Part shown: positions 6,356-33,613 of the stretch, in pieces
How the letters are laid out: each line of letters opens with the position of its first letter
How positions within the stretch are numbered: position 1 is the stretch's first letter
Assembly (NCBI GenBank): GCA_937870915.1
Contig: CALMZQ010000036.1
Location: forward strand, 1 to 34,947
Reading direction: 5' to 3'
Length of the DNA stretch: 34,947 nucleotides
From: an uncultured Ignavibacteria bacterium
GTDB taxonomy: Bacteria > Bacteroidota > Ignavibacteria > Kapaibacteriales > Kapaibacteriaceae
Translations under genes and position numbers: made by a program
Notes under the pieces: generated by a model
What the model was told of the DNA's origin: nothing
Seen by the model: the letters and a program-made list of their open reading frames with translations, nothing else
Databases searched by the model: none

Positions 6356-6370
6356 CACATTCTCTTCGAA

Positions 6371-6399: not shown

Positions 6400-6519
6400 G
6401 GCGACTAAGAATCAAAAGGCATTGGTCACCACATATCTCAATGAGAGTGCACTAATCCGGTGCACAGGTGCCTACTTTTGAGTGATTTCGTAAGCGAACA
6501 TTTAGCAATGGAGTACGTC

Positions 6520-6714: not shown

Positions 6715-6734
6715 TCGTGATTGCGCGATCATCA

Positions 6735-9543: not shown

Positions 9544-10725
9544 ATGATTGCCCGACACCTCCATAATGACCTTGTTGAGAGACTTCGTTTAGTACCTGCT
9601 GTGGCGTTACTAGGGTCGCGACAAGTTGGGAAGACTACTCTGGCGCGGTCACTTACGTTGGATAAGCCCCTTATATATCTTGACTTAGAGAGACCCTCAG
9701 ATCTCGCGAAGTTGGAGGATGCAGAGCTCTTTCTTGGGAAGGTGGCAAACACACTGGTTGTTGTAGACGAGGTACAGCGCAAACCTGACCTTTTCCCACT
9801 CCTTCGTTCGCTGATCGATGAACGGAGACGCAATGGAGAACGGGCCGGACACTTCTTGTTGCTTGGTTCTGCATCTCCGGATCTGTTAAAACAAGGGTCC
9901 GAGACACTTGCTGGACGTATAAGCTATCTAGAGATGACGCCATTCCAATTGAACGAGATCGGTGCAGATTGGGCTACGATAGATCGTCATTGGCTACGAG
10001 GCGGCTATCCGGAGAGCTATCTCGCGTCTGATGATTCGTCGGCTATGATGTGGTGCAACGATTTCATCACGAGTTACATTGAACGATATCTACCCATGAT
10101 GGGAGTAGCGGCCTCTCCCATTCAACTGCGTAGGTTTTGCACGATGATCGCCCATCAGCAATCTGCGCTCGTTAACCTTACACAGGTGGGCAACTCTTTG
10201 GGGATCGATAGTAAGACCGTCCGCTCGTACCTCGACCTTCTTGAAGGCCTCTACCTTATCCGTCGAGTTCCGGCGTGGTCGAAGAATGTCGGCAAACGTT
10301 TGGTCAAATCATCCAAGATTATGTGGAGAGACAGTGGATTAGTACACGATCTCCTTTCAATCCAATCCATGGATCAACTCCTTGGACATCCTGTCTGTGG
10401 GCACTCATGGGAAGCATATTGTATCGAGCAGATATGTAATGTGTTGCCCAAGGGCACATCGGCATCATACTACAGAACCCAAGCCGGTGCTGAGATTGAT
10501 CTCGTACTAGAGTCTGCTGATGGTACTATCCACGCCATCGAAATCAAACGAACGTTGTCTCCTAAACTGTCACGGCCACTGATCGAGAGCATGTCCACGA
10601 TCCAGGCAACATCTGCAACGATCATTATACCTAGCGGCAATCCGTATCCGTTATCCGAGAATGTAATGGCAATGGGGCTCCCTGAATTCCTGATAACACT
10701 CATTGGCGACTCTGGCTCACGTTGA
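9544..10725 (+). CDS. AAA+ ATPase with DUF4143 C-terminal domain, 393 aa
   Basis: N-terminal AAA domain: Walker A GSRQVGKT at residues 24-31, Walker B LVVVDE at 71-76, and the sensor region LLLGSASPDLL near 106-115. The C-terminal DUF4143 region has an AEIDLVLE ... IEIKR pattern (E317, D319, E333, K335), the arrangement of a PD-(D/E)XK nuclease-like fold. This is a widespread stand-alone family in bacteria and archaea, often lineage-expanded and mobile; its biological role is unsettled, with DNA-related or defence-related roles suggested. Its stop codon TGA (10723-10725) lies inside the first bases of a 171-bp-type repeat, so the last few residues (GDSGSR) may be repeat-derived. Confidence 0.88.
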   Translation: MIARHLHNDLVERLRLVPAVALLGSRQVGKTTLARSLTLDKPLIYLDLERPSDLAKLEDAELFLGKVANTLVVVDEVQRKPDLFPLLRSLIDERRRNGERAGHFLLLGSASPDLLKQGSETLAGRISYLEMTPFQLNEIGADWATIDRHWLRGGYPESYLASDDSSAMMWCNDFITSYIERYLPMMGVAASPIQLRRFCTMIAHQQSALVNLTQVGNSLGIDSKTVRSYLDLLEGLYLIRRVPAWSKNVGKRLVKSSKIMWRDSGLVHDLLSIQSMDQLLGHPVCGHSWEAYCIEQICNVLPKGTSASYYRTQAGAEIDLVLESADGTIHAIEIKRTLSPKLSRPLIESMSTIQATSATIIIPSGNPYPLSENVMAMGLPEFLITLIGDSGSR

Positions 10726-10851
10726 CCACTGCATCCAGAGGTAGCTGACTAGCTAAGCCCAATGCTAGATTGCAGTTGCCAAGGCGTAGGAGTGGGATCT
10801 CAAGGGGCCACGGCATCTCGGATTGTGAAGGTCAAGACAGGCGGAATCTCC
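10722..10851 (+). repeat. 171-bp element family, copy A (left-truncated)
   Basis: Follows the same order of landmarks as the intact copies: TTGACCAC, then CCCAATGCTAGATT, then CAAGGCGTAGGAGTG, and the right terminus CGGAATCTCC at 10842-10851. The left inverted repeat is missing or buried in the ATPase 3' end. The remaining sequence to the next gene (10852-10945) shows nothing definite beyond likely promoter space. Confidence 0.65.
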
Positions 10852-10945
10852 ATATTTTGGTGCGCAATCCTATTTCTCATATGTCTACGGTAAAAGCTGT
10901 ATTTGCTCGGGTGCATACCGTGGTTTTGCTAGTATTCAAGTATAC

Positions 10946-15900: not shown

Positions 15901-16746
15901 GGGAGCTTCATGTTAGCGCAAGGCGATACGGCTAGATTGGATCTGCGGTTTCTGCCATCGGATGTAGGTAGGACCAGCGGACGTTTGTTGTTCGAGTATA
16001 GCGGTGTTGGGAGTCCAGCCACTGTGCAACTCTTTGGTGAGGGAACTGTCAACAGCTTGGATACAGCGCGCACTACGGTTGTTGCCCAGGATATCATAGG
16101 CCAAGCAGGTGAGAGAGTGAATCTCACGTTAACGCTCCAAAAGCAGACTGGCTTGCAGCTCACCGGCGCGCCAACAAAATGGTATGCCCGTATCCGCTAC
16201 AATTCATCGATACTCTTCGTTGAACAAAGCAGCAGTGAATGTACCGGTTCAGCTGATAGCTGCATGCTCGAACTCACAGGGACGTACAATCCGGCGAGCA
16301 ACGAATTGATTTCTGTTCCGTGTATTGCGACACTTGGCAATACCGACAACTCATCGATCATCATCGACGAATTCCGCTGGACAAATAGCGGAATTGTTTC
16401 TGAGACGTTGACTCAAGATGGCAGAATACAAATCAATGGGGTATGCGAAGATGGCGGCCCGAGACTGTATATCTCAGCAAAGAACTCTACGTCGTTGACA
16501 ACCCGCCCCAATCCAACACAAAACTCGATGGAGATCCATTACGGTCTCCGTGAACCGCTGACTATCACTCTTGAACTGTTGAATATGATGGGTCAGGTAG
16601 TACAGACCTTTGTGAGCAACAAGGCTGAAGCCGCAGGCGGTTATGTCCTCACAACAGACGTCAGTGCCATAGGTAACGGGGCGTATCAGTTGCGGATGGT
16701 AACTAACAAAGAAACGCTAACAACACGTGTTGATGTGGTCAAGTAG
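12979..16746 (+). CDS. T9SS-secreted VWA / Ig-like / seven-blade WD40 protein, 1255 aa
   Basis: Start at ATG 12979 (or 12982) with AAGGAG immediately upstream; the signal peptide ends ASAQ-S near residue 32. Order of domains: VWA (MIDAS D100-I-S-G-S104, later LTDGQGG); a beta-sandwich; an Ig-like module starting PNGGETYVVGSDTLISW near residue 423; a WD40 propeller of seven repeats (about 505-795); the apparent rest of the Ig-like module (DVSDAVFSIV); two choice-of-anchor/ASH-like beta modules (PFTVPTSSSRAVEFRFSP; DFGALLVGVAKDTLRAITIK); a cohesin-like region; and a T9SS type-A sorting domain at the end (RPNPTQNSMEIHYGL, LLNMMGQVVQ). Likely a large cell-surface adhesion or interaction protein partnering the OmpA protein. 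Confidence 0.85.
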   Translation: MMKKYYLPNGSFMKLLIASILCLACLNQASAQSITLFDVDASNFPTLRAKFYAIDAAGNQQRPSAGELSLSENGQARTITSVTCPPQQPPKALSVVLVIDISGSMGSGYGSVPNIELAKSAARAWVNGLPLGSSECAITSFNGSNYLNQDITTDIKKLQSAISLLSPGGGTDYDAALINPMAGGLIVSMRGIHQKVIVFLTDGQGGGTENAIVAEANSQNCIVYCVTLGMPAPDILENIASRTGGQTYENVTTVEGAVDVYNRILQVAQGSSPCDIAWISEAPCSSVITAVELTWQGQKSQTGYAPPSGAIASLTVAPSYVAFGKRLPATQNDTTITLTAQNADFTVTGITRTFGSADIAVVNTTFPLLIPQNTSRTITLRLLPSDSSFKYASFEITTDKCSGHFSANGGFPGKKVASTLKLTQPNGGETYVVGSDTLISWTGIAPSDTVLLQYSADNGITWKIITRKATGLNFTWKNVPSPPSTQCLVRVSQGENTTTADTSGEILTLKGHTDAVYGVAFSPDGSRIATTSHDGATGIWDSNTGGLIRTLTGHADAVLDVAYSPDGSRLATASRDNTTKIWDTNSGALLSTLTSHYNGVYGVAYSPDGSAIATASGDGTANIWDSNTGVLIHTLTGHTSGVMDVAFSPDGSKIATASEDYTVKIWDASTGVLTQTLTGHNNGVYGVAFSPDGSRIATASNDQTAKIWDANTGVLIRTLAGHTLYLTGVAFSSDGSAIATASHDQSAKIWDANTGMLIRTLTGHNGGVSGVAFSPDGSRIATASWDYTARVWDIGGAPLQEDVSDAVFSIVAPSPASQNVDMRQCLVGSDRDSLISSFARNAGTYQYRVDSIAIVGSDASQFSLVSGIPPFTVPTSSSRAVEFRFSPTSTGTKTAQLIVFTQSDTLQQTIRGEGIAPSLAVLSDVIDFGALLVGVAKDTLRAITIKNVGSAPLSITATRHAGPNDFDFSTLSGGGSFMLAQGDTARLDLRFLPSDVGRTSGRLLFEYSGVGSPATVQLFGEGTVNSLDTARTTVVAQDIIGQAGERVNLTLTLQKQTGLQLTGAPTKWYARIRYNSSILFVEQSSSECTGSADSCMLELTGTYNPASNELISVPCIATLGNTDNSSIIIDEFRWTNSGIVSETLTQDGRIQINGVCEDGGPRLYISAKNSTSLTTRPNPTQNSMEIHYGLREPLTITLELLNMMGQVVQTFVSNKAEAAGGYVLTTDVSAIGNGAYQLRMVTNKETLTTRVDVVK
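14485..15366 (+). repeat. Seven tandem 126-bp WD40-coding repeats
   Basis: The GH dipeptide (SH in repeat 3) opening each blade begins at 14509, 14635, 14761, 14887, 15013, 15139 and 15265, an exact 126-bp period with no indels. Blades keep the pattern GVAFSPDGSRIATAS..D.TAKIWD.NTGVLIRTLTG in pieces. High blade-to-blade similarity implies recent internal duplication or gene conversion. Confidence 0.92.
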
Positions 16747-17387: not shown

Positions 17388-18379
17388 GGGTTCTCGTCAC
17401 TGGGTTGGGCAACATCGGCACCACGCTTTCATCACTGTTGCTATACTACAGAGAGCAGCTTGGTATTGATGAGATCGTCGCACTAAAACGAACGAACACA
17501 GGCTGGGGTGCCTCAAATCACACTCCCTTAATTGATAGGGGGCTAATTCTATTCCCTTATGCAGGAGAGTTCGAGGCTCAAGCTCGACGGGCAGACTATG
17601 TGTTCGAAACAACGGCAAACGGTGTGGGGATGAGGATGAGGCCGTTCTATGCCAACCTCGACAACCTACGAGGCGTTTCGGCACAGGGAAGCGAAACCGG
17701 GTTTGGCCTGCCGTTTATGTCTGGCATAAATGATTCCGCCGTGCTAGGTGAACGGTATGTGCAAGTAGTGTCTTGTAACACCCACGGAGCGGCAGCGCTT
17801 CTACATGGTTTATCGGGTGGCGATCTATCGTCGATCAATCATGCCGACATGGTTGTTGTGCGTAGGTCAGAAGATCTTGGACAACATCAGCGACTTGTAT
17901 CCGGGAATGTGGTATCACGGCATGTGGATTTATCGAGTGGCACACATCATGGGGTGGACGTCAAACGACTGTTAGCAACGATCGGTGCTGAGGCGCCGAT
18001 CATAACGTCAGACATCACAACGCCGAGTCAGCTCTTGCATAGCATTCGATTCATGATAGAATTCAATTGCCCCTTAACTGAAGACGTTGTGCATAAGCGG
18101 ATATCAGAGACGAACCTATTGGCGTCGACACATAAATTCGACAGCAACGTCATCTTTGAGCAGGGCCGTCGCTACGGCCATGCCGGACGGATCTATTCTC
18201 CGGCCATCGTTGTGTCGAACAACATGCTTATAGACGAAAACACCGTGCGAGGCTGGGCATTTGTTCCTCAGGAGGGAAACACACTGCTATCGACGATTCA
18301 CGCGTTCATTCTGCAAACGCGGGGTGACGAAGCAGTTATGAAAACCATCGTAAGCGACCTGACAAGAACGATGTGGTGA
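17384..18379 (+). CDS. Type II (archaeal-type) GAPDH-like dehydrogenase, 331 aa
   Basis: ATG 17384 is chosen because GGAGGAG lies 3 bases upstream and it overlaps the previous stop as ATGA; a longer frame from 17294 is not supported. The N-terminus [14 protein letters not shown] is an NAD(P)-binding loop. The segment AQGSETGFGLPFMSGIN, then VVSCNTHG with Cys131, then VVVRRSED, and GTHHGVDVKRLL with His188/189 follow, in order, the layout of archaeal glyceraldehyde-3-phosphate dehydrogenases (catalytic Cys in SCNT and His in HHG-D-V). Length is also near the usual 335-340 residues. Coupling to a sugar transferase suggests a role in glycan precursor metabolism instead of glycolysis, or a different aldehyde substrate. 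Assignment is by recalled motif order; no alignment was run. Confidence 0.7.
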   Translation: MRVLVTGLGNIGTTLSSLLLYYREQLGIDEIVALKRTNTGWGASNHTPLIDRGLILFPYAGEFEAQARRADYVFETTANGVGMRMRPFYANLDNLRGVSAQGSETGFGLPFMSGINDSAVLGERYVQVVSCNTHGAAALLHGLSGGDLSSINHADMVVVRRSEDLGQHQRLVSGNVVSRHVDLSSGTHHGVDVKRLLATIGAEAPIITSDITTPSQLLHSIRFMIEFNCPLTEDVVHKRISETNLLASTHKFDSNVIFEQGRRYGHAGRIYSPAIVVSNNMLIDENTVRGWAFVPQEGNTLLSTIHAFILQTRGDEAVMKTIVSDLTRTMW

Positions 18380-18480
18380 TGTGATCTTCCCCTGCTTACA
18401 TAGAAACGTTGGATGATCTCGCTGTTGAGATATATGTTGTTCTCAGTTTGCAAAGATCCATCCTCACTCCGGATACTGTT

Positions 18481-18630
18481 GCGAAAGAAGCGCTTATCAC
18501 CTTCACCGGCCACAAGAACTACAAGACCATGAAGAAGTATATTGCGATGGATGAGAAGGGGCGTAGGAAAGACGTGGAGAAGGTGTTTGGGTGTAAGGAG
18601 TATGATCTGATGCACTACTCAGAGGAGTGA
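18481..18630 (+). pseudogene. Tyrosine recombinase 3'-end relic 1
   Basis: The last about 45 codons of a recombinase: TFTGHKNYKTMKKYIAMDEK then GRRKDVEKVFG. This aligns with the final part of the intact integrase ending at 23941 (FTGHRSFKTMKKYIAL, GRKEDVEKVWG). It retains the catalytic His and Tyr but lacks the Arg and His-x-x-Arg parts. Homology begins at about 18490; upstream bases to 18380 match nothing recognised. Its stop TGA overlaps the ATG of the following lipoprotein (GTGATG). Confidence 0.8.
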
Positions 18631-19088
18631 TGGTGAGCTCTTGTATTTGCTTTTCTGCAGCCATTCTTGTGGTCATACTTACTGGTTGTTCAGATCCGCC
18701 TGCGCAGCAACAAACTGCTTTCATTCCCTATAGAATAGAAAACGAGCACATTGAGTATGATTGGTATCAACTGACTTATTGCGATAATAGATTCGACTTC
18801 AGAAGTGACATAATAAACGGAGATGTTACTCTGATTACGTATGGAATGCAGGATTATAGATATGTTTCAACGCAACAGATACTCGCTCGACAGTACGGCT
18901 TCTACTACTCTAACCTTGGTTGCATTGTATCTGACAACGATATCGAATGCGCAAACATCTATAACAAGAACGTGATCGCATTTCTATCGCTTAGAAATGG
19001 TAAGAAATGGTATGAAGAATTCAACCAACGACTCGACTCTGCTTGTAACGCTATTACCTACAAGCGACGGAATAGACACAATAACTGA
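18630..19088 (+). CDS. Putative lipoprotein, 152 aa
   Basis: Lipoprotein signal MVSSCICFSAAILVVILTGC with a good lipobox (L-T-G-C). The mature part is AT-rich, Tyr/Asn-rich and unrecognised, with three further Cys residues. The AGAGGAG that could serve as ribosome site lies inside the upstream recombinase relic, whose stop overlaps this start, so the gene is probably translated by coupling to the relic's reading frame. Confidence 0.6.
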   Translation: MVSSCICFSAAILVVILTGCSDPPAQQQTAFIPYRIENEHIEYDWYQLTYCDNRFDFRSDIINGDVTLITYGMQDYRYVSTQQILARQYGFYYSNLGCIVSDNDIECANIYNKNVIAFLSLRNGKKWYEEFNQRLDSACNAITYKRRNRHNN

Positions 19089-19142
19089 CAAGCATGTGTG
19101 TCAGTCAATTAATATCAGACCACACACACGCCGGTAAACTCT

Positions 19143-19499
19143 ATGACGAGTCACTTCAATATCAAGAAGATGGTTGAGATTCATGATCTCATATATGTGT
19201 TACTCGTTCTCGCCTTTATCGTGAGCATGGAGATGACGAAAAAAGTATATCGCGAATCGAATTGCAACCCCACAGATCAAACATGGCAAGCTACATTTCT
19301 TATCATAGGTGTAGTACTATTCGTGTGGTCTTCGGTTGGTATTGTAACTCTGCTTGTGGCAAGGGCTATAGAACTAATTCATGGAGTTAGTGTGATTCAC
19401 AGTCTGATACGTCGAAAATGGTTCATCAGTGCATTTGTAGTATTCGTATCGATTGTTGCTATGCTAAGATCAAATTTACTCGGTGTATACATTGATTAG
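19143..19499 (+). CDS. Small membrane protein, 118 aa
   Basis: Three hydrophobic segments are visible: near residues 15-31 (LIYVLLVLAFIVSM), 50-72 (FLIIGVVLFVWSSVGIVTLLVA) and 92-110 (WFISAFVVFVSIVAM). A short cytoplasmic or periplasmic loop carries charged residues. No family recognised. It lies 54 bp after the lipoprotein and may form a pair with it. Base composition is AT-richer than the core genes to the left. Confidence 0.5.
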   Translation: MTSHFNIKKMVEIHDLIYVLLVLAFIVSMEMTKKVYRESNCNPTDQTWQATFLIIGVVLFVWSSVGIVTLLVARAIELIHGVSVIHSLIRRKWFISAFVVFVSIVAMLRSNLLGVYID

Positions 19500-19501
19500 A
19501 C

Positions 19502-19590
19502 ATTCCGCTCCCCTTCACAACTCAATTACACAAGCAACTGACCATGGGATCGTGCTCTCAAGTAGTCACTTTGCAGCGGAATGATGCGAT
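19502..19590. repeat. Degenerate 171-bp-element fragment (copy G)
   Basis: ATTCCGCTCC near 19502, AACTGACCAT near 19538 and a CAAGTAGTCAC...GCGGAAT stretch near 19560-19580 occur in the same order as in the intact copies but with large gaps. Weak; reported because position (after a cargo gene) fits the other copies. Confidence 0.35.
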
Positions 19591-19649
19591 CTCTTAGCGC
19601 GGAACATACACCTGGCTAGCCAGCAAGAACTTTCATTCCGCACTATCAA

Positions 19650-19874
19650 GTTCGTAGGAGCGGTCAGACATCAACCGAGAAGCACGGTCCCACCTGAGAG
19701 CTTCTGTCCAGTCACGTCGCCCGTAAAGCCTTTGTCTCCATCTCACTTGAAAGGGGCATGCGTCCCGAAGTAGTGATGAGCTTCACCGGTCACACAAGCT
19801 ACAAGACGATGAAGAAGTATATTGCGCTGAACGAGTAGAGCCGCAAGGAGGATGTGGAGAGGGTGTGGGGATGA
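19650..19874 (+). pseudogene. Tyrosine recombinase 3'-end relic 2
   Basis: Closely matches the final 75 codons or so of the intact integrase: from AACCGAGAAGC, through the catalytic HVARKAFVSISLERGMR block and MSFTGHTSYKTMKKYIALNE, to GGATGA at 19874. An in-frame TAG interrupts after ALNE (19838-19840 region), and the catalytic Arg is lost, so it cannot recombine. Homology continues past the stop into the flank shared with 23943-24080. Confidence 0.85.
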
Positions 19875-19942
19875 GGTGGCCATGATCAATTGGGTGTGGC
19901 TGTGAATGAGAGATCCAATTCAGGGCAACCACGACTTTACAC

Positions 19943-20075
19943 TTAGAGATCAAAACATCAGCAGCCCTATAGTTAACCCATGAATCCAACCATCCTGAAT
20001 GTCTCCTGCTTTTGTAGCGCCTATCTACCCACAGGTCGTGGATAAGGCGCAGTGGGTATGGGCTATAAAGGAAAT
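19943..20075. repeat. Duplicated integrase 3' flank with hairpin (att candidate)
   Basis: Colinear with 23943-24080 downstream of the intact integrase (shared TTAGA.CTCA.AACATC, CACTGAAT.TCT-like and TTTGTAGCG segments). It contains a hairpin GCGCCTATCTAC (20017-20028) with GTGGATAAGGCGC (20038-20050). About 70 bp between the relic stop and this block are unmatched. The leader of the next lipoprotein gene is included at its right end. Confidence 0.6.
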
Positions 20076-20645
20076 ATGCGCAATCTACCTATGCACACAT
20101 TTAGGCATCTCTTGATTTCAGCTCTTATGCTTCTGCTTGTTTCGTGCGACGAAGTTCAAAATCGTTCGCAGGATATCGCAGATGAAAAAGATTCATTGTC
20201 AATAGATAATTCTGAATTCTACATTCGATACCCTTCGACGTGGACTTTAGATCGAAGTGGTAAAATGGGCTCCAACTTTATTCTGTTTGCTTCACCTGAT
20301 AATGATACTGATGACTTTAGGGAAAACATTAATCTGATGATTCAGAATCTTGCAGGGGCCAACGTGGATATGGACAAGTTCGTTGAAGTTTCTGAAAATC
20401 AGATTAAATCAAAGACAATGCCCAATTCGCAGTTAATTTCGAGCGAGAGAAAATCCTTAGCCGATGGCGAATATCATAAACTGATTTATACAGGTGATCA
20501 AGGTATTCACCACTTACAATTCGAGGCGTATTGTTGGATTAAGAATGAAAAGGCCTATGTTTTGACCTTCTCGGCCGAGCAAGTAGAATTCAAGAATTAT
20601 CAATCGATCGCTGAATCCATACTTGACTCATTTAAGTTGAAGTAG
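20076..20645 (+). CDS. Lipoprotein with PsbP/DcrB-like fold, 189 aa
   Basis: ATG 20076 is chosen for the AAAGGA just upstream; ATG 20091 is also possible. Signal HLLISALMLLLVSC with lipobox V-S-C. The mature part begins SLSIDNSEFYIRYPSTWTLD and contains NFILFASPDND and a C-terminal YVLTFSAEQVEF, then IAESILDSFKLK, the layout of the DcrB/PsbP-like lipoproteins (a short domain with F.I.YP..W at its start and a final S...SF.). It is AT-richer than its neighbours and Lys-rich, typical of Bacteroidota genes acquired by transfer. Confidence 0.65.
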   Translation: MRNLPMHTFRHLLISALMLLLVSCDEVQNRSQDIADEKDSLSIDNSEFYIRYPSTWTLDRSGKMGSNFILFASPDNDTDDFRENINLMIQNLAGANVDMDKFVEVSENQIKSKTMPNSQLISSERKSLADGEYHKLIYTGDQGIHHLQFEAYCWIKNEKAYVLTFSAEQVEFKNYQSIAESILDSFKLK

Positions 20646-20674
20646 ACTGTGCATGACAACGCATTGGCACCACT

Positions 20675-20840
20675 GGAGTTTCCGCCCGCGTTGACCACTT
20701 CATTCCGCACACAACTGACCATCGCATCATATGGTATGCTTACTTGCAAAAACCAATGCTAGATTGTGGTCCATGGCCTTGGAGTACAGACGCAAGTGGT
20801 CGCGGCAACGAGGATTGTGCTCGACTCAATTGGCACCTTG
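20675..20840 (+). repeat. 171-bp element family, copy C (right end degenerate)
   Basis: Starts GGAGTTTCCG, then has the two internal units TTGACCACTTCATTCCGCAC and ACTGACCATCGCATC, and ACCAATGCTAGATTGTGG. The right half (GCGGCAACGAGGATTGTG) is recognisable but the final CGGAATCTCC is not. It occupies most of the gap between two cargo genes. Confidence 0.7.
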
Positions 20841-20906
20841 AATTCGTGAACATCGCTGTCCAGAATATGTTGATACGTTCCGCTCTGAGGAGGCAAGGGT
20901 AACCCC

Positions 20907-21677
20907 ATGAAGCTGCTTCTAACCCTTATCATGCTGTTGTGTTCCGCCGTCTCCGGTGTTGCATTATGCACTGCGGAAGGACTCTATGTCTATCCAAGCG
21001 GTCGCACCATAAAGCAGAATTCAATGTTTATCGTCAGAGGCTACGCAGAGAGTCAGAGTGTTGTACTTGGCCTTAACAAAAAGTACAATATCTACCTTAG
21101 GAGCGGAGGCACGATTGTTCGTCTCGTTGTCAAAGAGATATGTGTTGGGCAATACCAATTGACACAGGCAATCCTTAAGCCTGAAAGAGAGTTGGAAGCG
21201 GGACGAGAATACACCGTCATTATAGACAGCTTGCCGAAACGTGAGGAGCTAGAGAGAATCAGCGATAAAACAGACAACTCTGGGGTTCCGTCCTATAAAG
21301 TTGTTGCGGGCATAGATGCCACTCGACCAGAGGTGACTTCGAAGCCAGTAATTCTGAAGAAAAGATACGCGCAGTATGGTTGCGGACCAGCTATTTATGT
21401 TGAGTTTAGTAATCCTGCTAAGGACGATTCAGAGCTATGGGTGAAAACGACCGTTAGAAGTCTTAAATCGGGAAAGGAAGCTACGTTTTACCTTGTACCA
21501 GATGGAGAGAAAATCTACGTTGGGCGCAGCATGTGTTCAGGTGCCTTCGCGTTCAGAGATGACGGTAGCTACGAAGTCGAGTTTTCGTTTGTGGATAGCT
21601 GCGGTAATCTGACGGCCTGGGCCGGGGAGAGAATGGTTTTTACGAAACCAGACGTCAGATCTGACGATGAAGACTAG
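20907..21677 (+). CDS. Exported hypothetical protein, 256 aa
   Basis: GAGGAGG upstream of ATG 20907; signal peptide MKLLLTLIMLLCSAVSGVAL with cleavage near CTAEG. Residues about 25-110 and 135-250 look like two beta-sandwich modules (NSMFIVRGYAESQSVVLGL; AIYVEFSNPAKDDSELWVKT; DGSYEVEFSFVDSCGNL). No family named. It is enclosed by repeat copies C and D, so it can be seen as a single-gene cassette. Confidence 0.6.
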   Translation: MKLLLTLIMLLCSAVSGVALCTAEGLYVYPSGRTIKQNSMFIVRGYAESQSVVLGLNKKYNIYLRSGGTIVRLVVKEICVGQYQLTQAILKPERELEAGREYTVIIDSLPKREELERISDKTDNSGVPSYKVVAGIDATRPEVTSKPVILKKRYAQYGCGPAIYVEFSNPAKDDSELWVKTTVRSLKSGKEATFYLVPDGEKIYVGRSMCSGAFAFRDDGSYEVEFSFVDSCGNLTAWAGERMVFTKPDVRSDDED

Positions 21678-21680
21678 TTT

Positions 21681-21857
21681 ATTGGAGATTCCGCTCCTGC
21701 TAACCACTTCATTCCGCCCGTGTATGACCCCCGCGTCCCATGGAATGCTGACTTATTAAACCCAATGATAGTTTACAATTGCCAAGGCGTTGGAATGCGA
21801 TCCCAAGTGGCCACGGCCACGCGGATTTTGATGGTCAGGTCGGTCGGAATCTCCAAT
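21681..21857 (+). repeat. 171-bp element family, intact copy D
   Basis: Core of 171 bp from GGAGATTCCG (21684) to CGGAATCTCC (21854), with the perfect inverted repeat extending to 13 bp (ATTGGAGATTCCG and its complement, 21681-21857). Two left-end units ATTCCG-7 bases-TAACCAC and ATTCCG-7-ATGACC occur near 21688 and 21711. No coding potential. Confidence 0.85.
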
Positions 21858-21935
21858 CACAATTGGGCCATCAAACGGGGCAGGTCTAATTGATCTGAGC
21901 ATCAGGATGAGTTTGATGATGTTGTACATTCGTAC

Positions 21936-22439
21936 ATGACACTACTGAACAGGTTCATCATCATCTTCAGCTTCGTGGCGATCTCGGTGTCGGGACAGGT
22001 GGTGGATTCGAATGATAGCCTGCAACAGGAATACCTTTGGAAGAAACAGTCGTTTCTGATCCTGAAGTCAACGCGGGACTACAATGAAGCGAGGGTGTTT
22101 GCAGCAAACGCTCGGAAGCTGTTGAATGCCGGCTCGGACGATCGAGACCTTGAGCAGCATGACGGTCTTGGTCTGACGCTTCCCAAAAGCGTCTGTCTTG
22201 AAGAGGGGGACACATATCCGTGCTATGTCGTGCGTGGAAGAGATGGCCAAGACTCACTTTGGACAAGCGTGGATCTATCCTCTGCTTATACTGGCTTCGC
22301 CAACGGCTACTTCATAGTGATTCTTGCACATGGCAATCCAGAAAACCCGTTTCTTCGAGAAGCTCTTGATAGAGCTCACAAGTTCTTCCCGGATGCATAC
22401 CTCAAGCTTACCGAGGTGTACATTGGGTGCATGCATTGA
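21936..22439 (+). CDS. Exported hypothetical protein, 167 aa
   Basis: Signal peptide MTLLNRFIIIFSFVAISVSG (cleavage near QVV). The body has LILKSTRDYNEARVFAANARKLL, later EGDTYPCYVVRGRDG, AYTGFANGYFIVILAHG and PDAYLKLTEVYIGCMH. The alternating layout (a helix with K.Y.EA, then a final Y-I-G-C) resembles a family of uncharacterised secreted proteins of Bacteroidota with a SPOR-like sequence pattern; this is by recall and weak. Two to three Cys residues may form a disulfide. It lies between repeat D and the tRNA-fragment/integrase block. Confidence 0.6.
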   Translation: MTLLNRFIIIFSFVAISVSGQVVDSNDSLQQEYLWKKQSFLILKSTRDYNEARVFAANARKLLNAGSDDRDLEQHDGLGLTLPKSVCLEEGDTYPCYVVRGRDGQDSLWTSVDLSSAYTGFANGYFIVILAHGNPENPFLREALDRAHKFFPDAYLKLTEVYIGCMH

Positions 22440-22480
22440 GGCGAGTGCTCTATCAAGCCGTGAGCCATGCTATAGAACCG

Positions 22481-22516
22481 AAAAACCCTTGCAACTCTAT
22501 GAGTTACAAGGGTTTA
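22481..22516 (-). terminator. Intrinsic terminator read on the minus strand
   Basis: Stem AACCCTTGCAACTC (22484-22497) and GAGTTACAAGGGTT (22501-22514) with a TAT loop and one mismatch; on the minus strand it is followed by TTTTTC. It lies directly 3' of the tRNA-like fragment on that strand, the place expected for a terminator captured with a tRNA gene's 3' end. Confidence 0.6.
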
Positions 22517-22529
22517 CGTATTCTGGGAG

Positions 22530-22555
22530 TAGCGGGGGCAGGAAATGAACCTACG
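22530..22555 (-). other. tRNA T-arm/acceptor-end fragment, possible attachment site
   Basis: Read on the minus strand it gives GTAGG, a 7-base loop TTCATTT, CCTGC, then CCCCGCTA, i.e. the T-stem, a T-loop and the 3' acceptor strand of a tRNA. The loop lacks the conserved A58 pattern, and no D-arm or anticodon arm precedes it, so it is a relic and not a working gene. tRNA 3' ends are common targets of tyrosine integrases, and the integrase begins 157 bp away. Confidence 0.45.
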
Positions 22556-22711
22556 TTTATCCTGAGATATCCCGAGATATCAGAACGTATGATTACTTGC
22601 TTATATAGCATGGACTTACGTAGATTGTAGACGTCTGGTGATATCTCGAATAATCCCGAGATCAAGTAAAAAACCGTCACCTGTACCGTCACCTGAGTAT
22701 GAAGGAATGGC

Positions 22712-23941
22712 ATGGCACAGACCCGTCTATACCTCAAGAAGGACATCAATCGTGATGGCCGTTCGGCAGTGATCCTCAGCGTATTCGTGAACAATGCCCG
22801 AATGAGACTGGGTACTGGCGTGACGGTTAGGCCTGGTGACTGGAATGAGGATAAACAAGAGATCAAACGCTCTGAGCCAAGTTATTCCGCGCTGAACGCC
22901 ATACTAAAGGCGCGGACAATCGAGGTTGAAACGGCTGTCTTGAATGGGATTGCTACTCACGGGGAGGCGTTCTCGTTGAGGATCCTAACCGAGGAGCTGT
23001 CGCGCCGTAGGGTGGATCGTACCCCAAACGACTCAGTGGAAAAGGCTCTCTCGTTCTGGGACTTCTATGCCCAGTTCATAGCATCTAAGAAGAACGAACT
23101 GGAGCCCCGGACTATCGCGAAATACAACACACTGAAAGTGATCCTGAAGGAAGTGGAGAAGGGCAAGGACCCATTGAAGTTCGAAAACATCGACCATAGC
23201 TTCTATGATCGAATCCGGAATCACATGATCAAGAAGCGGAAGCTGACCAACAACACCATTGGCAAGTACGTGAGCACCTTCAAGACATTTTTGTCGTGGG
23301 CAGTGGACAGGGGAGCCCCTGTTCACCCAGCCTACCGCAAGTTCAAGGTCGATGAGGAAGACGTCGAGGTAGTGGCCCTCACATGGGACGAACTCCAGCT
23401 CCTTGAGAAAGTCGATCTCTCCGCCAACCCACGTTTAGACCGTGTGCGCGATCTCTTCCTTCTTGAGTGTTACACCGGAGCACGGTTCGGTGACATCCAA
23501 ACCATGCACTACGATGACATTCGCGATGGCGTATGGTGTCTGCGTCAACAAAAGACCAAGACCGAGGTTCGCATTCACATTTCCAAGCGTGCCGATGCCA
23601 TCATCACCAAGTACCGAAGCATTGGCAGTCCACTTCCGTCCATAAGTTCCCAGAAGTTCAACGGTTACATTAAAGAACTCGGTAAGGTCGCCAAGTTAGA
23701 TAGTCCCTTCAGACAAGTACGACGAAGTGGTAAGACTGCAACCGAGAAGCGCGGTCCAAAGTGGGAGTTCTTGTCAAGTCACGTAGCGAGAAAGACGTTT
23801 GTGTCCATCTCACTTGAAAGGGGCATGCGCCACGAGGTCGTCATGAGCTTCACAGGACACAGAAGTTTCAAAACGATGAAGAAGTATATTGCACTCACCG
23901 AGAAGGGGCGTAAGGAGGATGTGGAGAAGGTGTGGGGGTGA
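22712..23941 (+). CDS. Tyrosine recombinase/integrase, 409 aa (intact)
   Basis: N-terminal arm-binding domain (MAQTRLYLKKDINRDGRSAV to about residue 90), a SAM-like core-binding domain (about 110-205) and a catalytic domain. Catalytic residues are all readable: R258 (YTGARFGDI), a beta-strand Lys in QQKTKTEV near 283, H357-x-x-R360 (SHVARK), H383 (FTGH) and Y392 (KKY). Length and order match Bacteroidota integrases of mobile islands. Its 3' end and flank are duplicated at 18481-18630, 19650-19874 and 19943-20075. Confidence 0.93.
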   Translation: MAQTRLYLKKDINRDGRSAVILSVFVNNARMRLGTGVTVRPGDWNEDKQEIKRSEPSYSALNAILKARTIEVETAVLNGIATHGEAFSLRILTEELSRRRVDRTPNDSVEKALSFWDFYAQFIASKKNELEPRTIAKYNTLKVILKEVEKGKDPLKFENIDHSFYDRIRNHMIKKRKLTNNTIGKYVSTFKTFLSWAVDRGAPVHPAYRKFKVDEEDVEVVALTWDELQLLEKVDLSANPRLDRVRDLFLLECYTGARFGDIQTMHYDDIRDGVWCLRQQKTKTEVRIHISKRADAIITKYRSIGSPLPSISSQKFNGYIKELGKVAKLDSPFRQVRRSGKTATEKRGPKWEFLSSHVARKTFVSISLERGMRHEVVMSFTGHRSFKTMKKYIALTEKGRKEDVEKVWG

Positions 23942-23942
23942 T

Positions 23943-24080
23943 TTAGAACTCAGAACATCCATAGCCCATTCACTGAACGAAGAGCCCAACACCACTGAAT
24001 ATCTTCTGCATTTGTAGCGTCTATCCACGCAGAAGTCGCGGATACAGTTCAATGAGTAAGGGTTGTAATGGGTTATGCCG
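23943..24080. repeat. Integrase 3' flank, copy matching 19943-20075
   Basis: The segment after the intact integrase stop is colinear with the flank of relic 2, including GCATTTGTAGCGTCTATCCACGC (first 20 bases shared in pattern) and a weaker hairpin TATCCACG/CGCGGATA near 24028-24052. It ends about 40 bp before the methyltransferase start. Bases 24081-24123 show nothing further. Confidence 0.6.
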
Positions 24081-24123
24081 CATTCTAAATGGCGACACCG
24101 AAACATAAGAACGAGATAGAAAG

Positions 24124-24753
24124 ATGGAAAACTTTGATCGCAAGAAACATTGGGAAAACATCTACCAGACAAAAGATCTGAAAGATGTTAGTTGGTTTCA
24201 ACCGACACCAGAAACTTCATTGGACTTCTTTAAACAATTCAACGTGCCGACATCTGCAAAAGTGATTGACATTGGCGGTGGTGACAGTTATTTAGTTGAT
24301 CATCTACTCGACTTGGGTTATCAAGACATTTCTGTTCTCGACATTTCAGTGGCAGCCATTGATAAAGCAAAACAACGACTTGGCGACAAAGCAAAAAATG
24401 TAAAATGGATAGTTGCAGATGCAGCGACTTTTAAGCCGACAGAGAAATATGATTTTTGGCACGACCGAGCAGCCTTTCACTTTTTGACAGACGAACAAGA
24501 AGTATCGAACTACTTACAGACGGCTCAAGAGAACATCAATCCGACAGGTGTATTGGTAATCGGGACCTTTTCGGAACAAGGACCGAAAAAATGTAGCGGA
24601 ATAGAAATAAAACAGTATTCAGAGACGACAATGACAGACCGACTGAAAGAGTATTTTGAGAAAATTAAATGCATAACGGTTGACCACAAGACACCTTTTG
24701 ACACAATTCAGAATTTTGTTTTTTGCAGTTTCAGAAAATTGCAAGCGTCTTGA
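24124..24753 (+). CDS. Class I SAM-dependent methyltransferase, 209 aa
   Basis: Motif I VIDIGGGDSYLVDHLLDLG (residues about 48-66), then VLDISVAAIDKAKQRL, IVADAATF and DFWHDRAAFHFL, the order of small Rossmann methyltransferases. The substrate cannot be told; similar proteins act on small molecules or thiols. The gene is markedly AT-rich and Lys/Asn-rich compared with flanking genes, indicating recent acquisition. ATG 24124 is supported by GAAAG close upstream. It lies between the integrase flank and repeat copy E. Confidence 0.85.
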   Translation: MENFDRKKHWENIYQTKDLKDVSWFQPTPETSLDFFKQFNVPTSAKVIDIGGGDSYLVDHLLDLGYQDISVLDISVAAIDKAKQRLGDKAKNVKWIVADAATFKPTEKYDFWHDRAAFHFLTDEQEVSNYLQTAQENINPTGVLVIGTFSEQGPKKCSGIEIKQYSETTMTDRLKEYFEKIKCITVDHKTPFDTIQNFVFCSFRKLQAS

Positions 24754-24822
24754 CACAATACGAATAGATAGAAAAGCGAATGTGTAAAACGGGGTTGGCA
24801 AAAGTAGCGGTTCAGTGTTCTG

Positions 24823-24997
24823 CTGGAGATTCCGGTTGCAGTGACTACATTATTCCGCACATGATTGACCACCGCATCTAATGGTATGCTGACTTGCTAA
24901 ACCCAATGCTAGATTACAGCTATCAAGCCGTTGGAGTGTGATCTCAGCTGGTTGCGGCAACGAGGATCTTGATGGTCAAGGTGTGCGGAATCTCCAG
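24823..24997 (+). repeat. 171-bp element family, intact copy E
   Basis: The core GGAGATTCCG (24825) to CGGAATCTCC (24995) is 171 bp, the same length as copy D; the inverted repeat extends to 12 bp (CTGGAGATTCCG). The left half has ATTCCG-CACATGA-TTGACC and the right end carries the inverted unit ATTCCG-CACACC-TTGACC. It separates the methyltransferase from the end of the metal operon. Confidence 0.88.
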
Positions 24998-25040
24998 AAG
25001 TCGGTGACGACAGCATTGCTGGGTACAAGCGTGGACGTTC

Positions 25041-26339
25041 TTAATGTGCATGCCCCTCCCCTTTATTATTCATCTTTGCCAAGATGAAGAACGCGCCCTT
25101 TACGGCGACCCTGCTGTTCGCGGGGATCTCTTTCAGTAAGGTTATTTCACTGTAACCAACATCGGTGGTGCCTTTGCGAATAGGGATCCGTTCGAACGTT
25201 GTTCCTTTTTCCTTGTGTTTGGATTCGTCTCTTGCTTGGTGCTTGGGCTCCTCTTTTTCGCCGTGACCATGTCCCTGCTCATCGTGTTTGTGTTCGGTAG
25301 TCTCCGACTCGCTGTGATGTTCTTCTTCCGCGTGAGCATCGGTAACGATAAAGATGTAGTCCTGACCCTCGTGGTTTACAATAGCATCGGTAGGTACGGC
25401 ATCAACGGTGGCATTCTCCAGGCTCACTAACGCGGTAATGCTCATTTTGTCAATCAATCCCTGCTTGTTTCCTTTGACGATTGCATGAACGGCAACGGCC
25501 TTAGACGTTGGGTCGAACGTGTTGCTGATTGCATAAATATCGGCGTCATACTCCTGGCCCGGATTGTTTGTGAGTGTGAAGTGAATTGTTTGCCCAACTC
25601 TCATTTTCGGCAAATCCTTTTCGTAAACAAATAAGTCTAAATGTAGTTGACTGTTGTCCACTATTTCAGCGATGGGGCTGTTCGCATCCACATAACTGCC
25701 GATGTTGACCTTTACGTCGCGGATTACTCCGCCTATCGGACTTCTGATGCTAACTGTTGACTGTATGTTTTCGGTCGTAAGTGCCTCAGCACTGATGCCG
25801 ATTAGTTCCAATTGTTTACGCAAGCTTGCCCGTTTTGCTTTTAACGTCTTGAGCTCTGCATCCGCGCTTTGTAGATTCTTGAGAGCGGTGGCGTTACCCT
25901 GTTGCAGTTCCTTTTGCCGGGCATACTCTAATTCTGCCAGTTCGGATTTCGATGAAACACTTAAATAGTCTTCTTGCAGGGTTATGAAGGAACTGTTGGT
26001 GATGGTAGCAATGACCTGCCCTTTGCGGACGTTACTTCCCGTTTGTACCTGGATCGATTTTATTACGCCACCCATTGATGCCGTAGCGCTGGCTTTGTTT
26101 TGATTTGGCACCTCCAATATCCCGTTCGCCCTAAGCGAGGCAGTAAGCTGTTTCCGCTCGATACTACCAAACTGAATGTTTATGGATTTCATCTGCTCGT
26201 CAGTGAGCATGGCTGTGTTCTTATTCTCATGCACCTCGTGTTGCTCAGTCTCGACGGCTGGCGATTCGAACTTTTCGCTTTTGCACCCCGCAACAACCAT
26301 TGACACTGCGAGGATTACTATTATGATTGCACTTTTCAT
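25041..26339 (-). CDS. RND efflux periplasmic adaptor lipoprotein (CzcB/CusB type), 432 aa
   Basis: Lipoprotein signal MKSAIIIVILAVSMVVAGC. Typical adaptor order: N-terminal beta-barrel strand, biotinyl-lipoyl half (ASMGGVIKSIQVQTGSNVRK), a helical hairpin (SKSELAELEYARQKELQQG to RKQLELIG), second lipoyl half (IRSPIGGVIRDVKVNIGSYV), then a membrane-proximal barrel. A His/Glu-rich insertion near residues 330-380 (EHHSESETTEHKH, GHGHGEK and others) and a C-terminal GEGHAH would bind divalent metals. It lies 12 bp downstream of the pump gene in the same operon. Substrate among Cu, Ag, Zn, Co, Cd is unclear. Confidence 0.88.
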   Translation of the reverse strand: MKSAIIIVILAVSMVVAGCKSEKFESPAVETEQHEVHENKNTAMLTDEQMKSINIQFGSIERKQLTASLRANGILEVPNQNKASATASMGGVIKSIQVQTGSNVRKGQVIATITNSSFITLQEDYLSVSSKSELAELEYARQKELQQGNATALKNLQSADAELKTLKAKRASLRKQLELIGISAEALTTENIQSTVSIRSPIGGVIRDVKVNIGSYVDANSPIAEIVDNSQLHLDLFVYEKDLPKMRVGQTIHFTLTNNPGQEYDADIYAISNTFDPTSKAVAVHAIVKGNKQGLIDKMSITALVSLENATVDAVPTDAIVNHEGQDYIFIVTDAHAEEEHHSESETTEHKHDEQGHGHGEKEEPKHQARDESKHKEKGTTFERIPIRKGTTDVGYSEITLLKEIPANSRVAVKGAFFILAKMNNKGEGHAH

Positions 26340-26351
26340 TTTATTGATTTT

Positions 26352-29300
26352 CTATTGGTTGATTAAGAGGTTGATGCTGACAACAGCTTGGTTGATCTGG
26401 CTTACTGCTTGAAGAAAGTTCAATTGTACATCTGTCGCTGTTTGCAATGCCTGTAGAAACTCAACGTAGCTGATGGCACCACTTTTGAAACCGAGGGTTG
26501 CCGTACTGATAATTGATTCGGCATTGGGCAATGCTGTGGATAGGTAGTATCCATAGTGTGACAGGTATAGCTCGTAACGGTAGAAGGCGTTTTGCAGTTG
26601 ATTCTGCAACTGCTGCCTGCGGTTGTCGGCCTCTTTCTGCAACGCTTGATACTTGTAGTCCAGAGACTTGATCTTAGCAGCGTTGCTGAAAAACGTTACC
26701 GGTATGCTTATGCCGACATTAAAGCCCTGAAAGCGTTTGCTACCGTCAAAGTACACATCAGCACCATCAACACTTTGTACACCTATTAATGACTGGTTGA
26801 AATAGCCAACATTGAAGTCCGGCAACGTGGATGCCGTTTCCACCTTGATGTTTTGTTCCGCCACTACGGCTTGCTGATACAGCACTTTCACCGATGGATT
26901 ATTGGCAATTAGAGACGTATCGAACGATCTGCTTAATACGAGTGGCTGCAAACTATCGGTGAGGGCAATCGTAAAATCCTCGCTTGAATTCATCAGGGTT
27001 TTCAAGGATCGGTAAGCAGTCAACAATTCGACATCGTATTGCTTCACGAGCAGCGATAGCTGTCCTCGCTTGGTTTCGGCGGTTGTTTTTTCGAGAAGAT
27101 TCGTTTCTCCGGTTTTGTAGCGCAATGCAACAGTAGCTTCAAAATCCTTATACATGCTGTCTAACCGCAGCAATTGCGTTCTGGCGGTTTGCAAGTACTG
27201 CAACTGATGATACCAGTAAAGAACCTGAGCCTTTGTTTCACTGACCGTTGCTTCATGCTGCAATTTGCTGCTTTGTAGTTCAGCCTCGAACAGACTGGAT
27301 CTAGCCGTGTAATAGGTGGGGAAAGGAATGCTCTGGGAGATCTGAAATGCTTGGTCCTGATTTATGCTGTTGTATTGCCCGAACTGTACGTTGACACCCG
27401 TTTTGGGTAGCTCGAACACTGACTTTTTCAACGCCGTTGCTGACTCCACATTCAGTTGCTTCGACTGGATGTCAAAATTGTTCTGTACGGCTATGCTAAC
27501 CGCATCATCGACTGAAATGCTCTTTGTGGTTGGTGTTTGGGCAATTGCCACGCTGCACGAAAGAAAGGCAACGACGCCGAGAGCTGCGGATCTGCTGAGC
27601 TTCCACGTTCGTTTACCAGAAAACAACAGGTAGAGCAGGGGCAGAACAAACAGCGTTAAGAATGTGGCCGTGACGAGTCCGCCTATCACGACAGTTGCCA
27701 GAGGCTTTTGCACCTCTGCACCAGCCCCAGTTGATACTGCCATTGGGATGAAGCCAAGTGAAGCAACAGTCGCGGTCATCAGCACGGGTCGTAGGCGGAT
27801 CTTTGTGCCTTCTATAACTCGCTGAATCGTATCGGTCATTCCGTCTTTCTCCAATTGATTGAAAGTGCTGACCAATACAATTCCATTTAGTACAGCTACA
27901 CCAAACAAGGCAATGAATCCAACGCCTGCCGATATGCTGAAAGGCATCCCACGAAGCAGCAACGCAAAGACGCCCCCAATCGCTGCCATTGGAATGGCCG
28001 TGAAGATCAACGCAGCCTGTTTGATAGAAGTGAAAGCGAAATAGAGTAGCATGAAAATGAGCGCCATTGATAACGGAACTGCTATCATTAATCGTTTCGT
28101 TGCGGCCTGTAGGTTTTCAAATGTGCCCCCGTACGTGTAGTAATATCCCTCGGGTAGTCTCACTTGTTGGTCGAGTTTATTCTGGATATCAGTCACGACA
28201 CTTTGTACATCTCTGCCGGTCACGTTAAAGCCAACGACAATCCTGCGTTTAGCCTTTTCGCGACTAATCTGTGCCGGACCCAATTCCAGTTTTATATCCG
28301 CCACTTGCGATAGAGGAATTTGTGTTCCATCGGCGGTCGGTATATATAAATGGCTTACATCTTCAATGTTGTTACGATGTGTGCTATCCAGTCGAACCAC
28401 TAAATCGAACTTGCGTTCATTCTCAAATACAACGCCTGCCTCGCCCCCAGCAAACGCAGTGCTAACGATGTGGTTGATGTCTTCAATGTTCAGGCCATAA
28501 TTAGCAATTTGGGTTCGGTTGTAGTTAATGACGATTTGTGGTAGTCCCGCGACTCTTTCCACCATTGGCTCCGTGGCACCTTCCACGCTTTGGACCACTT
28601 CATTTACCTTCTCAGCATAGAATAAAAGAGTATCCATGTTTTCGCCAAAGATTTTTACTGCTACATCCTGGCGAATGCCAGTCATTAGTTCGTTGAAGCG
28701 CATCTGTATTGGTTGGCTTTTTTCAAAGAAGACGCCGGGAATGTTCTCTAGCTTTTCATTGATTTCATCGGCCAAATCATCATAAGAAATATCTCGTTTC
28801 CATTCGTCTTGAGGTTTCAGAATTACCATCAAATCGGTTGCTTCGGGTGGCATGGGGTCCACCGGAACTTCGGCCGCACCAGTTCTGCCGACTACCATCT
28901 TTACTTCGTCAAATACTTTAATAATGCGTGACGCCTGCATGGAGGTTTCGATGCTTTGCGACAGAGATGTACCCTGCGGGAGAATACAATGAAAGGCAAA
29001 GTCGCCTTCGGCTAATGTAGGTATGAATTCGCCTCCCATTCTTGAAAAGACAAAAACGGCGACAAAGAAAACAGCTACTGTTATTCCAACCACGTACCAT
29101 TTTGCTTTGATAGCTCCGGCTAAAAGCGGAGCATACGTACGCTGAAAAAACGCCATCATTTTGTCGGAAACGTTCTGCTTATGGGCTACTTTTCTGCTGA
29201 GGAAAAGTGCAGACGCCATTGGTATATAGGTAATCGAGAGGAGGAAAGCACCGAGAATGGCAAATGAAACGGTTTGGGCCATCGGACCAAACATCTTACC

Positions 29301-30719: not shown

Positions 30720-30865
30720 TTTTGTAATCAGTTTAATGAGTGAACCAAGGTGCCTGCGACAAGCCCGCATTCGATCGTTGGGTGTGAACGGGAGGCAACA
30801 GCAGACAACGTCATCGTGATGGGTGACGCAGAGTTGTAGTTACAAAGGGGAGAGCGTGAGTGCTC

Positions 30866-31282
30866 TTAGGCGCGTGGAGGCTGAAAGATCGACGCGAGGG
30901 GCTTGTCAGTATACAGGTCTACAGACGTTTTGGACGACTGCTTACGGTCGTCGCCGATAACGGGCGGAAGTACAATAGCGCTCGGTGGCACAGCCAACTG
31001 GGCGATGCAGCCCGTGCCGCAGTTCTTAGGTCCTGTTTGATCGTGATGCCGATTGTGTTCGGAGTCTGATGACGAAGTATCATGCGTGTCATCATGCGTT
31101 AGGCACTTCAAGATGTCCTGCACCGACTCATCGTGGTCAACCAAGTGATGCTCGATATGCACGAGCTGCACGGCCGCCTTCACGATATTGTTAAGGCATA
31201 GACCAAGGAGCAATGACCATACAAGGATGGTGCCGAAGATGATACGTAGTGTACGCGAACGCATAATTGGCAAGTTACGCAT
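30866..31282 (-). CDS. Small His-rich metal-operon protein, 138 aa
   Basis: ATG 31282 is preferred; it overlaps the P-type ATPase stop by 8 bp. A signal or membrane segment near residues 14-32 (IIFGTILVWSLLLGLCLN) is followed by His/Asp clusters (HIEHHLVDHDE, CLTHDDTHD, SEHNRHHDQ) and two Cys (KNCGTGC). Proteins of this design accompany RND metal efflux genes in Bacteroidota; it may buffer or sense periplasmic metal. A 146-bp gap separates it from the pump gene. Confidence 0.6.
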   Translation of the reverse strand: MRNLPIMRSRTLRIIFGTILVWSLLLGLCLNNIVKAAVQLVHIEHHLVDHDESVQDILKCLTHDDTHDTSSSDSEHNRHHDQTGPKNCGTGCIAQLAVPPSAIVLPPVIGDDRKQSSKTSVDLYTDKPLASIFQPPRA

Positions 31283-33522: not shown

Positions 33523-33552
33523 CAATATAGACAAGTTCTTCGTTTGCTCAGT

Positions 33553-33613
33553 AAAGATTCCGCTCGTTTTGACCACATCATTCCGCACGTAACTGACCAC
33601 AGCTTCTAATGGT
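33553..33613 (+). repeat. 171-bp element family, copy F (left part, interrupted by IS)
   Basis: Begins AAAGATTCCG, followed by units ATTCCG-CTCGTT-TTGACC and ATTCCG-CACGTAA-CTGACC, and continues TCTAATGGT as in copy E, where it is cut off by the IS end. The missing half should lie beyond the IS, outside the window. Confidence 0.7.

Follow-up and report, generated by a model that had tools for sequence, protein, structure and literature searches.

Recombinase gene relics beside an intact integrase gene

We analyzed a stretch of 34,947 nucleotides (nt) from an uncultured Ignavibacteria bacterium (the window; contig CALMZQ010000036.1 of assembly GCA_937870915.1), which is contig 36 of its source genome (G000; 97% complete, 233 contigs). 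The window carries an intact gene for a tyrosine recombinase (integrase) of 409 amino acids (aa), two relics of the 3' end of such a gene, several accessory genes, and copies of a palindromic repeat (Table 1). An earlier note on this DNA had described recombinase 3' ends lying in one orientation, and this was borne out. Relic 1, relic 2, and the 3' end of the intact gene are all on the plus strand, and the relics are 77% (relic 1, positions 18501 to 18593) and 80% (relic 2, 228 bp; 19647 to 19874 against 23714 to 23941) identical in nt to the intact gene. Relic 1 is the more diverged of the two, with 57% aa identity over residues 363 to 409 of the intact protein. Protein searching placed relic 2 at residues 324 to 409, with 79% aa identity over residues 332 to 409. 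Pfam analysis of the intact protein (Phage_integrase, E 3.7e-12; Phage_int_SAM_5, E 1.8e-15; Arm-DNA-bind_5, E 5.5e-9) revealed the catalytic and arm-binding domains expected of a tRNA-targeting tyrosine-recombinase element.

The sequences that follow the three copies were aligned, as the note had proposed. Relic 2 and the intact gene share a flank (local alignment, z = 7.2; 74% identity over 94 columns between 19995 to 20087 and 23995 to 24087), but the flank of relic 1 aligned with neither of the others (z = -1.7 and -0.3; 60 shuffles throughout). A hairpin in the shared flank was considered as a site and rejected, since its folding energies are ordinary (z = -0.85 and 0.08). The claim that one accessory gene follows each copy also held in part: the lipoprotein, PsbP-like lipoprotein, and methyltransferase genes are in place, but relic 1 is followed by two open reading frames (ORFs), after which comes a degenerate repeat. 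The note had missed the palindromic repeat of about 173 bp that separates the genes of the array; copies stand after the PsbP gene, after the gene next to it, and after the methyltransferase gene. Single copies of this repeat fold into long hairpins.

A protein search of G000 with the intact 409-aa sequence found 13 places. Seven, including the window gene, are complete or almost complete integrases; among them, the nearest to the window gene (55% identity) is on contig C210. The remaining six are partial: two lie in the window, two on C210 (C210a and C210b), and a single copy on each of C14 and C132. All six are C-terminal (residue 292 or later), and five reach residues 407 to 409, with C210b stopping at residue 342. 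No N-terminal-only piece was found in G000, although a diverged one might escape such a search. The start points of the relics differ, lying at about codons 301, 324, 355, 363, and 379. Relic C210a is 93% identical in DNA over 152 bp to the intact integrase gene on the same contig. A nonexhaustive scan of named genomes with two peptide patterns gave 5 loci, the two closest being in a Candidatus Kapaibacterium MAG and an Ignavibacteria MAG.

An attachment core identical to the tRNA-Met 3' end

Tyrosine-recombinase elements that target tRNA genes carry their integrase beside a core copied from the 3' end of the tRNA, and they can enter one site serially (tandem accretion). The window integrase likewise stands beside a core copied from a tRNA 3' end, that of tRNA-Met(CAT), but the other end of the element is not in the same contig. 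ARAGORN detected no tRNA gene inside the window; only the 3'-end copy is present. The core is unique in the window even when three mismatches are allowed, and 100 shuffles gave no match. When up to two mismatches were allowed across G000, the core motif with its continuation occurred at four places: ahead of each of the two related intact integrases, in tRNA-Met(CAT) on C132, and in a tRNA-Pro (two mismatches). A reversed control pattern gave one match. The double ACCGTCACCTG motif upstream of the window integrase would represent arm-type sites.

The tip of C210 consists of 77 bp identical to C132 and ending at the core, after which C210 continues into integrase and C132 into tRNA. In G005, a genome listed in the window's genus, contigs C72 and C81 share 129 bp and part right after the core, one leading to an integrase and the other to tRNA-Met. 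That integrase, which is cut by the contig end, is 71% identical to the C210 integrase over 213 aa. Because both pairs of contigs part directly after the core, core-tRNA and core-integrase junctions are both present behind one left flank in two assemblies. The site was thus found both occupied and unoccupied, a pattern that does not separate strain mixture from tandem copies; the two-way junctions may stem from strain mixture, active exchange, or tandem copies. A contig-tip search (14 contigs) also showed C105 overlapping itself by 77 bp and C217 overlapping C138 by 55 bp. The value of 77 bp, which recurs in the C105 self-overlap but not in the third overlap, may be the assembler's word length. 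The short contig C105 carries near-identical direct repeats (218 to 388, 5997 to 6129, and 6949 to 7151; 95 to 98%), one of them at the contig tip.

The tRNA-Met query was matched in 34 of the 40 genomes searched, G000 included. Around tRNA-Met in 16 relatives, one side is occupied in 13 by a gene from a single family of large proteins (some copies are cut by contig ends, and in G012 it lies two ORFs further). The opposite side, where elements enter, holds mostly unrelated genes without a match in the set. A TspO-like ORF of the window (6689 to 7210; by eye) is 80% identical over 118 aa to an ORF about 1.3 kb from tRNA-Met in G003, and it may be shared cargo or part of the flank of the island.

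Palindromic repeats with IS21-type ends and the truncation of integrase relics

In three of the six relics (C132, C210a, and C210b), the match to integrase sets in at the base directly following the terminal CA of a repeat. To the right of the junction, 38, 41, and 35 of 45 bases, respectively, match intact integrases (shuffled maxima of 25, 25, and 27), whereas to the left only 7, 7, and 6 of 20 bases match. These exact junctions place the relic starts at codons 379 and 301 of the window gene and codon 355 of the C210 gene.

With a sequence-only model, repeat matches numbered 52 in G000 (one copy can count twice, on the two strands), 20 in G003, 8 in G010, and 16 in G012, and 12 of the 40 genomes, G000 included, had any match at E 0.01. 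Matches to the window copy were 65 to 88% identical. The repeat arms contain TGGAGATTCCGC together with recurring TGACCAC and ATTCCGC units. In this they resemble the left end of an IS21-like element on contig C184, which has TGGAGATTCCGC with repeated GTGACCAC and ATTCCGC-like units. A transposase-like ORF on C184 is 33% identical to window ORF 33791 to 34945, in which Pfam identified Mu-transpos_C_2 and HTH domains. The IS21 label given to the ends of repeats and elements draws on this identity and on these domains. At 33543 to 33613, a half repeat runs straight into the apparent left end of another IS21-like element (by eye), the one with this transposase ORF. According to an account of the family (PMC10122671), IS21 ends consist of several repeats and finish in CA. 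The repeats described here are alike in both respects, but they carry no transposase gene and show no target duplication. The ends of the repeats, TG...CA with repeated subsites as in an IS21-family element, are those that an IS21-derived miniature inverted-repeat transposable element would have.

Of the IS21-like element itself only a left end was seen, on C184, and transposase relatives occur at four places in 20 genomes. C184 joins the element to high-GC ribosomal genes (S5 domain by Pfam, the rest by eye). It looks chimeric because the same ORF carries the ribosomal S5 domain, and it is likely a chimera or a contaminant. None of 29 full repeat copies had a target duplication of at least 4 bp (shuffles averaged 0.10), and mismatch-tolerant tests did not rise above shuffles; these results do not support reading the repeat as a normal transposon copy that duplicated its target. 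Comparison of a G012 repeat locus with G017 gave separate matches to the right of the repeats and an identical 75-bp piece 12 kb away (a tRNA, by guess), with no clean empty site. For the C209 repeat locus, matches in other genus members lie mainly to the right of the repeat. Since target duplication, matched arm pairing, and consensus structure were all lacking, we call these sequences palindromic repeats with IS21-type ends and file them in no family.

A probable genomic island at tRNA-Met filled by serial insertion

We consider it likely that the window belongs to a genomic island that grew at the tRNA-Met(CAT) 3' end, filled by serial elements and repeats, with older integrases truncated at repeat ends. 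Elements composed of core, arm sites, integrase, and cargo would have entered the tRNA-Met site repeatedly in one orientation, leaving older elements further from the tRNA, and the palindromic repeats would have filled the island as well. Repeated insertion at tRNA-Met is supported by the single left flank that continues after the core into either tRNA or integrase in two assemblies, and serial insertion by the 93% identity between relic C210a and the intact integrase of its own contig. The identical 28-bp arm repeat in the tRNA-proximal flank of C132, the three precise repeat junctions, and the mostly unrelated genes on the entry side in relatives also speak for this account. The proposal in the earlier note that integrase-bearing elements had inserted repeatedly at one site is thus upheld in substance, with the site now placed at the tRNA-Met 3' end. 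The window relics carry no core, so their place in the history of insertion is one that we infer. A deletion running from the right end of a repeat into an older integrase gene would have removed the core and the 5' part of the gene, leaving a 3' scrap and the adjoining cargo gene.

Several findings weigh against this account. An exact repeat junction is seen in only three of the six relics; near relic 2 the repeat is degenerate, and profile searching found no repeat at the 5' limit of relic 1 or of the C14 relic. The two-way junctions could stem from tandem copies or strain mixture and do not prove active excision. The window holds one core only, and in no case do both ends of an element lie on a single contig. 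A candidate for the other end of the window element lies on another contig, C132, where the 28-bp arm repeat recurs. Flank X lies to the right of relics 1 and 2, and a similar X stands beside the intact tRNA-Met of G003 and of G010. X may therefore be native flank, in which case these two relics would be outside the insertion point and need another history.

For the last step alone there is a close rival, to which we give an appreciable though lesser chance: a repeat inserted into the integrase gene, and homologous recombination with an upstream repeat then deleted the stretch between them, with no deletion made by a transposase. Distances calculated from the two repeat halves correlate at 0.32, against a mean of 0.52 (range, 0.33 to 0.64) for random block splits, as expected if the copies are mosaics, but the outer alignment quarters may be noisy. 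The copies, at 65 to 88% identity to the window copy, are also too dissimilar to favor homologous exchange. Either process fits the pattern of scrap plus cargo gene described in the earlier note.

Possible cassette-like exchange or plain decay

In integron cassette arrays, single genes alternate with palindromic sites, and the arrays of genes and repeats seen here are alike in that respect. On contigs C135 and C82, single ORFs alternate with repeats, and one orientation prevails. Members of one gene family are present on C138, C82, C217 (5' end only), and contig C89 of G003. Its upstream DNA is 93% identical between C138 and C217 and between C217 and G003, and the ORFs to the left have no match to each other. 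In the alignment of C138, C217, and the G003 contig, 25-column identities were 0.88 to 1.0 in columns 251 to 425 versus 0.40 to 0.88 inside the left repeat (columns 26 to 200). To the right of this family, C138 and C82 join the middle of the repeat and G003 joins its start a few bases later (by eye). A DUF4143 ATPase gene has 92% DNA identity between G003 and G015, which belong to different genera (L113 4704-5919; L128 2564-3780). The shared block begins near a repeat-end-like sequence, ends shortly past the stop codon, and does not include the right repeat. Judged by this identity, its presence in two genera apparently reflects recent transfer. Such comparisons suggest that gene blocks have been exchanged at repeat boundaries.

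It is rather doubtful that repeats with IS21-type ends serve as boundary sites of single-gene cassettes. Under that proposal, their right ends would be joined repeatedly, without target duplication, to new genes or fragments, and a transposase-end system would build integron-like arrays without an integron integrase and also disarm host island integrases. We regard as unlikely the related explanation in which single genes bounded by palindromic sites move as units in the manner of integron cassettes, with integrase scraps captured as cassette sequence and the window integrase or another enzyme as agent. The gene-repeat alternation, the shared blocks, the long hairpins, and the absence of target duplications would all suit it. 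However, the integron integrase model TIGR02249 gave six weak matches in G000, none over the cut-off, and arm complementarity was no different within copies (0.506) than between them (0.499; 36 copies). The repeat alignment (21 copies) has no consensus base pair, beside the shared gene, the right half of the repeat has in part stayed with the gene (0.84 in some windows), G010 and G012 have repeats that stand alone, and repeat and gene orientations disagree on C210, on C91, and in G012. The repeat-rich genomes G003, G010, and G012 lack a close integrase relative (best E 1.4e-33, none at 1e-20, and 6.5e-60, respectively), whereas G005 and G015 (the latter listed in the window's family) have close relatives but 0 and 1 (weak) repeat matches. 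The window integrase is for this reason not likely to be the agent of exchange at repeat boundaries.

Canonical attC sites or an integron were rejected for lack of an integron integrase over the cut-off in G000, of any Rfam match in 18300 to 25100, of a consensus pair, and of arm covariation, and the repeats also have another end sequence than integron arrays. The gene-repeat arrays could conceivably be read as integron-like. The second option of the earlier note, in which the recombinase end plus its flank is itself the cassette recombination site, found no support. The relic breakpoints differ, the core lies elsewhere, upstream of the integrase, and only the relic 2 flank, of the four compared (relics 1 and 2, C14, and C132), aligns with the intact flank. 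Repeat-rich and integrase-carrying genomes also differ among the 39 others, and only G000 has both. That single integrase insertions simply rotted in a variable region, near repeats by coincidence, is very improbable. In its favor, relic 1 and C14 lack a repeat at the 5' limit, and three of the four compared flanks fail to align with that of the intact gene; against it, three junctions fall exactly at the first base after a repeat and all six partial copies are C-terminal, none N-terminal only.

Other features of the window

Features of the array and its surroundings are collected in Table 1. PADLOC matched 2 of 10 cargo proteins, namely, a type IIG restriction enzyme on C132 and the window methyltransferase, the latter to mad2. 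The mad2 match is one of methyltransferase domains, and we do not read it as a defense assignment. Next to the array, 25041 to 33488 encodes an HlyD-like protein, a 1,472-aa RND pump seemingly fused to a TolC-like part, and a P-type ATPase, by eye a metal-efflux block. A 1,255-aa ORF (12979 to 16746) contains six tandem units with 126-bp spacing at 14530 to 15356 that are 71 to 77% alike; by eye, its translation has WD40-like repeats beside a vWA-like part. Overlapping VapC-like and AbrB-like ORFs at 5731 to 6415 are probably a toxin-antitoxin pair (by eye).

Table 1. Position, strand, and basis of features in the window
Feature	Position	Strand	Basis or remark
Palindromic repeat after DUF4143 ATPase gene	10681..10853	+	Profile, alignment; left arm poorly kept
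Relic 1, recombinase 3' end	18455..18600	+	Strong homology 18501-18593; start near 18455 read from alignment
Lipoprotein gene after relic 1	18627..19088	+	Lipobox by eye; no Pfam match
Small ORF, second gene after relic 1	19143..19499	+	Membrane protein by eye; Pfam match subthreshold only
Degenerate, shortened repeat just left of relic 2	19490..19633	+	Two partial profile matches, E 0.0011 and 0.0073
Relic 2, recombinase 3' end with stop codons	19638..19874	+	Protein search and nt alignment
Flank shared with intact gene, relic 2 side	19875..20087	+	Alignment
PsbP-like lipoprotein gene after relic 2	20052..20645	+	Pfam (PsbP_2, E 2e-6)
Palindromic repeat	20673..20849	+	Profile, alignment, folding
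256-aa gene between two repeats	20907..21677	+	No Pfam match
Palindromic repeat	21682..21856	+	Profile, alignment, folding
167-aa gene after repeat 21682..21856	21936..22439	+	No Pfam match
Terminator-like left flank X	22473..22528	+	22473-22554 90% identical to sequence beside tRNA-Met in G003
Attachment core GTAGCGGGGGCAGGA, 15 bp	22529..22543	+	Identical to 3' end of tRNA-Met(CAT); 5' of integrase gene
28 bp with ACCGTCACCTG twice	22669..22696	+	Identical to C132 10718-10745 beside intact tRNA-Met
Intact tyrosine recombinase, 409 aa	22712..23941	+	Arm-DNA-bind_5, Phage_int_SAM_5, Phage_integrase domains
Flank shared with relic 2, intact-gene side	23942..24087	+	Alignment
Methyltransferase gene after intact recombinase	24124..24753	+	Pfam
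Palindromic repeat	24823..24997	+	Profile, alignment, folding
Half repeat	33543..33613	+	Profile; junction by eye

Relation to known islands and significance

An integration hot spot with serial elements is of an already known kind. According to the report on the ssrA-specific genomic islands of Dehalococcoides (PMC3146451), tandem islands lie downstream of one RNA gene and are bounded by copies of its 3' end. The locus described here is alike in its serial elements at one RNA gene, its integration genes beside one boundary, and its variable cargo. The Dehalococcoides islands use a serine recombinase, tmRNA, and a 20-bp repeat, whereas here there are a tyrosine recombinase, tRNA-Met, and a 15-bp core, together with truncated integrase relics and interspersed palindromic repeats (PMC3146451). 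A limited literature search found no publication joining Kapabacteria, integrase, and genomic island, and we do not claim absence from print. The exact truncation of integrases at repeat ends and the gene-repeat arrays make this locus an unusual variant of the known kind.

The genome offers a natural series of integrase genes, ranging from the intact form to short remnants, around a single defined tRNA site, and some of the truncation points are located to the nucleotide. What becomes of old integration modules at a hot spot can thereby be tested. If it is true that the repeats bound exchangeable genes, they would offer a way for cassette arrays to form with no integron integrase involved.

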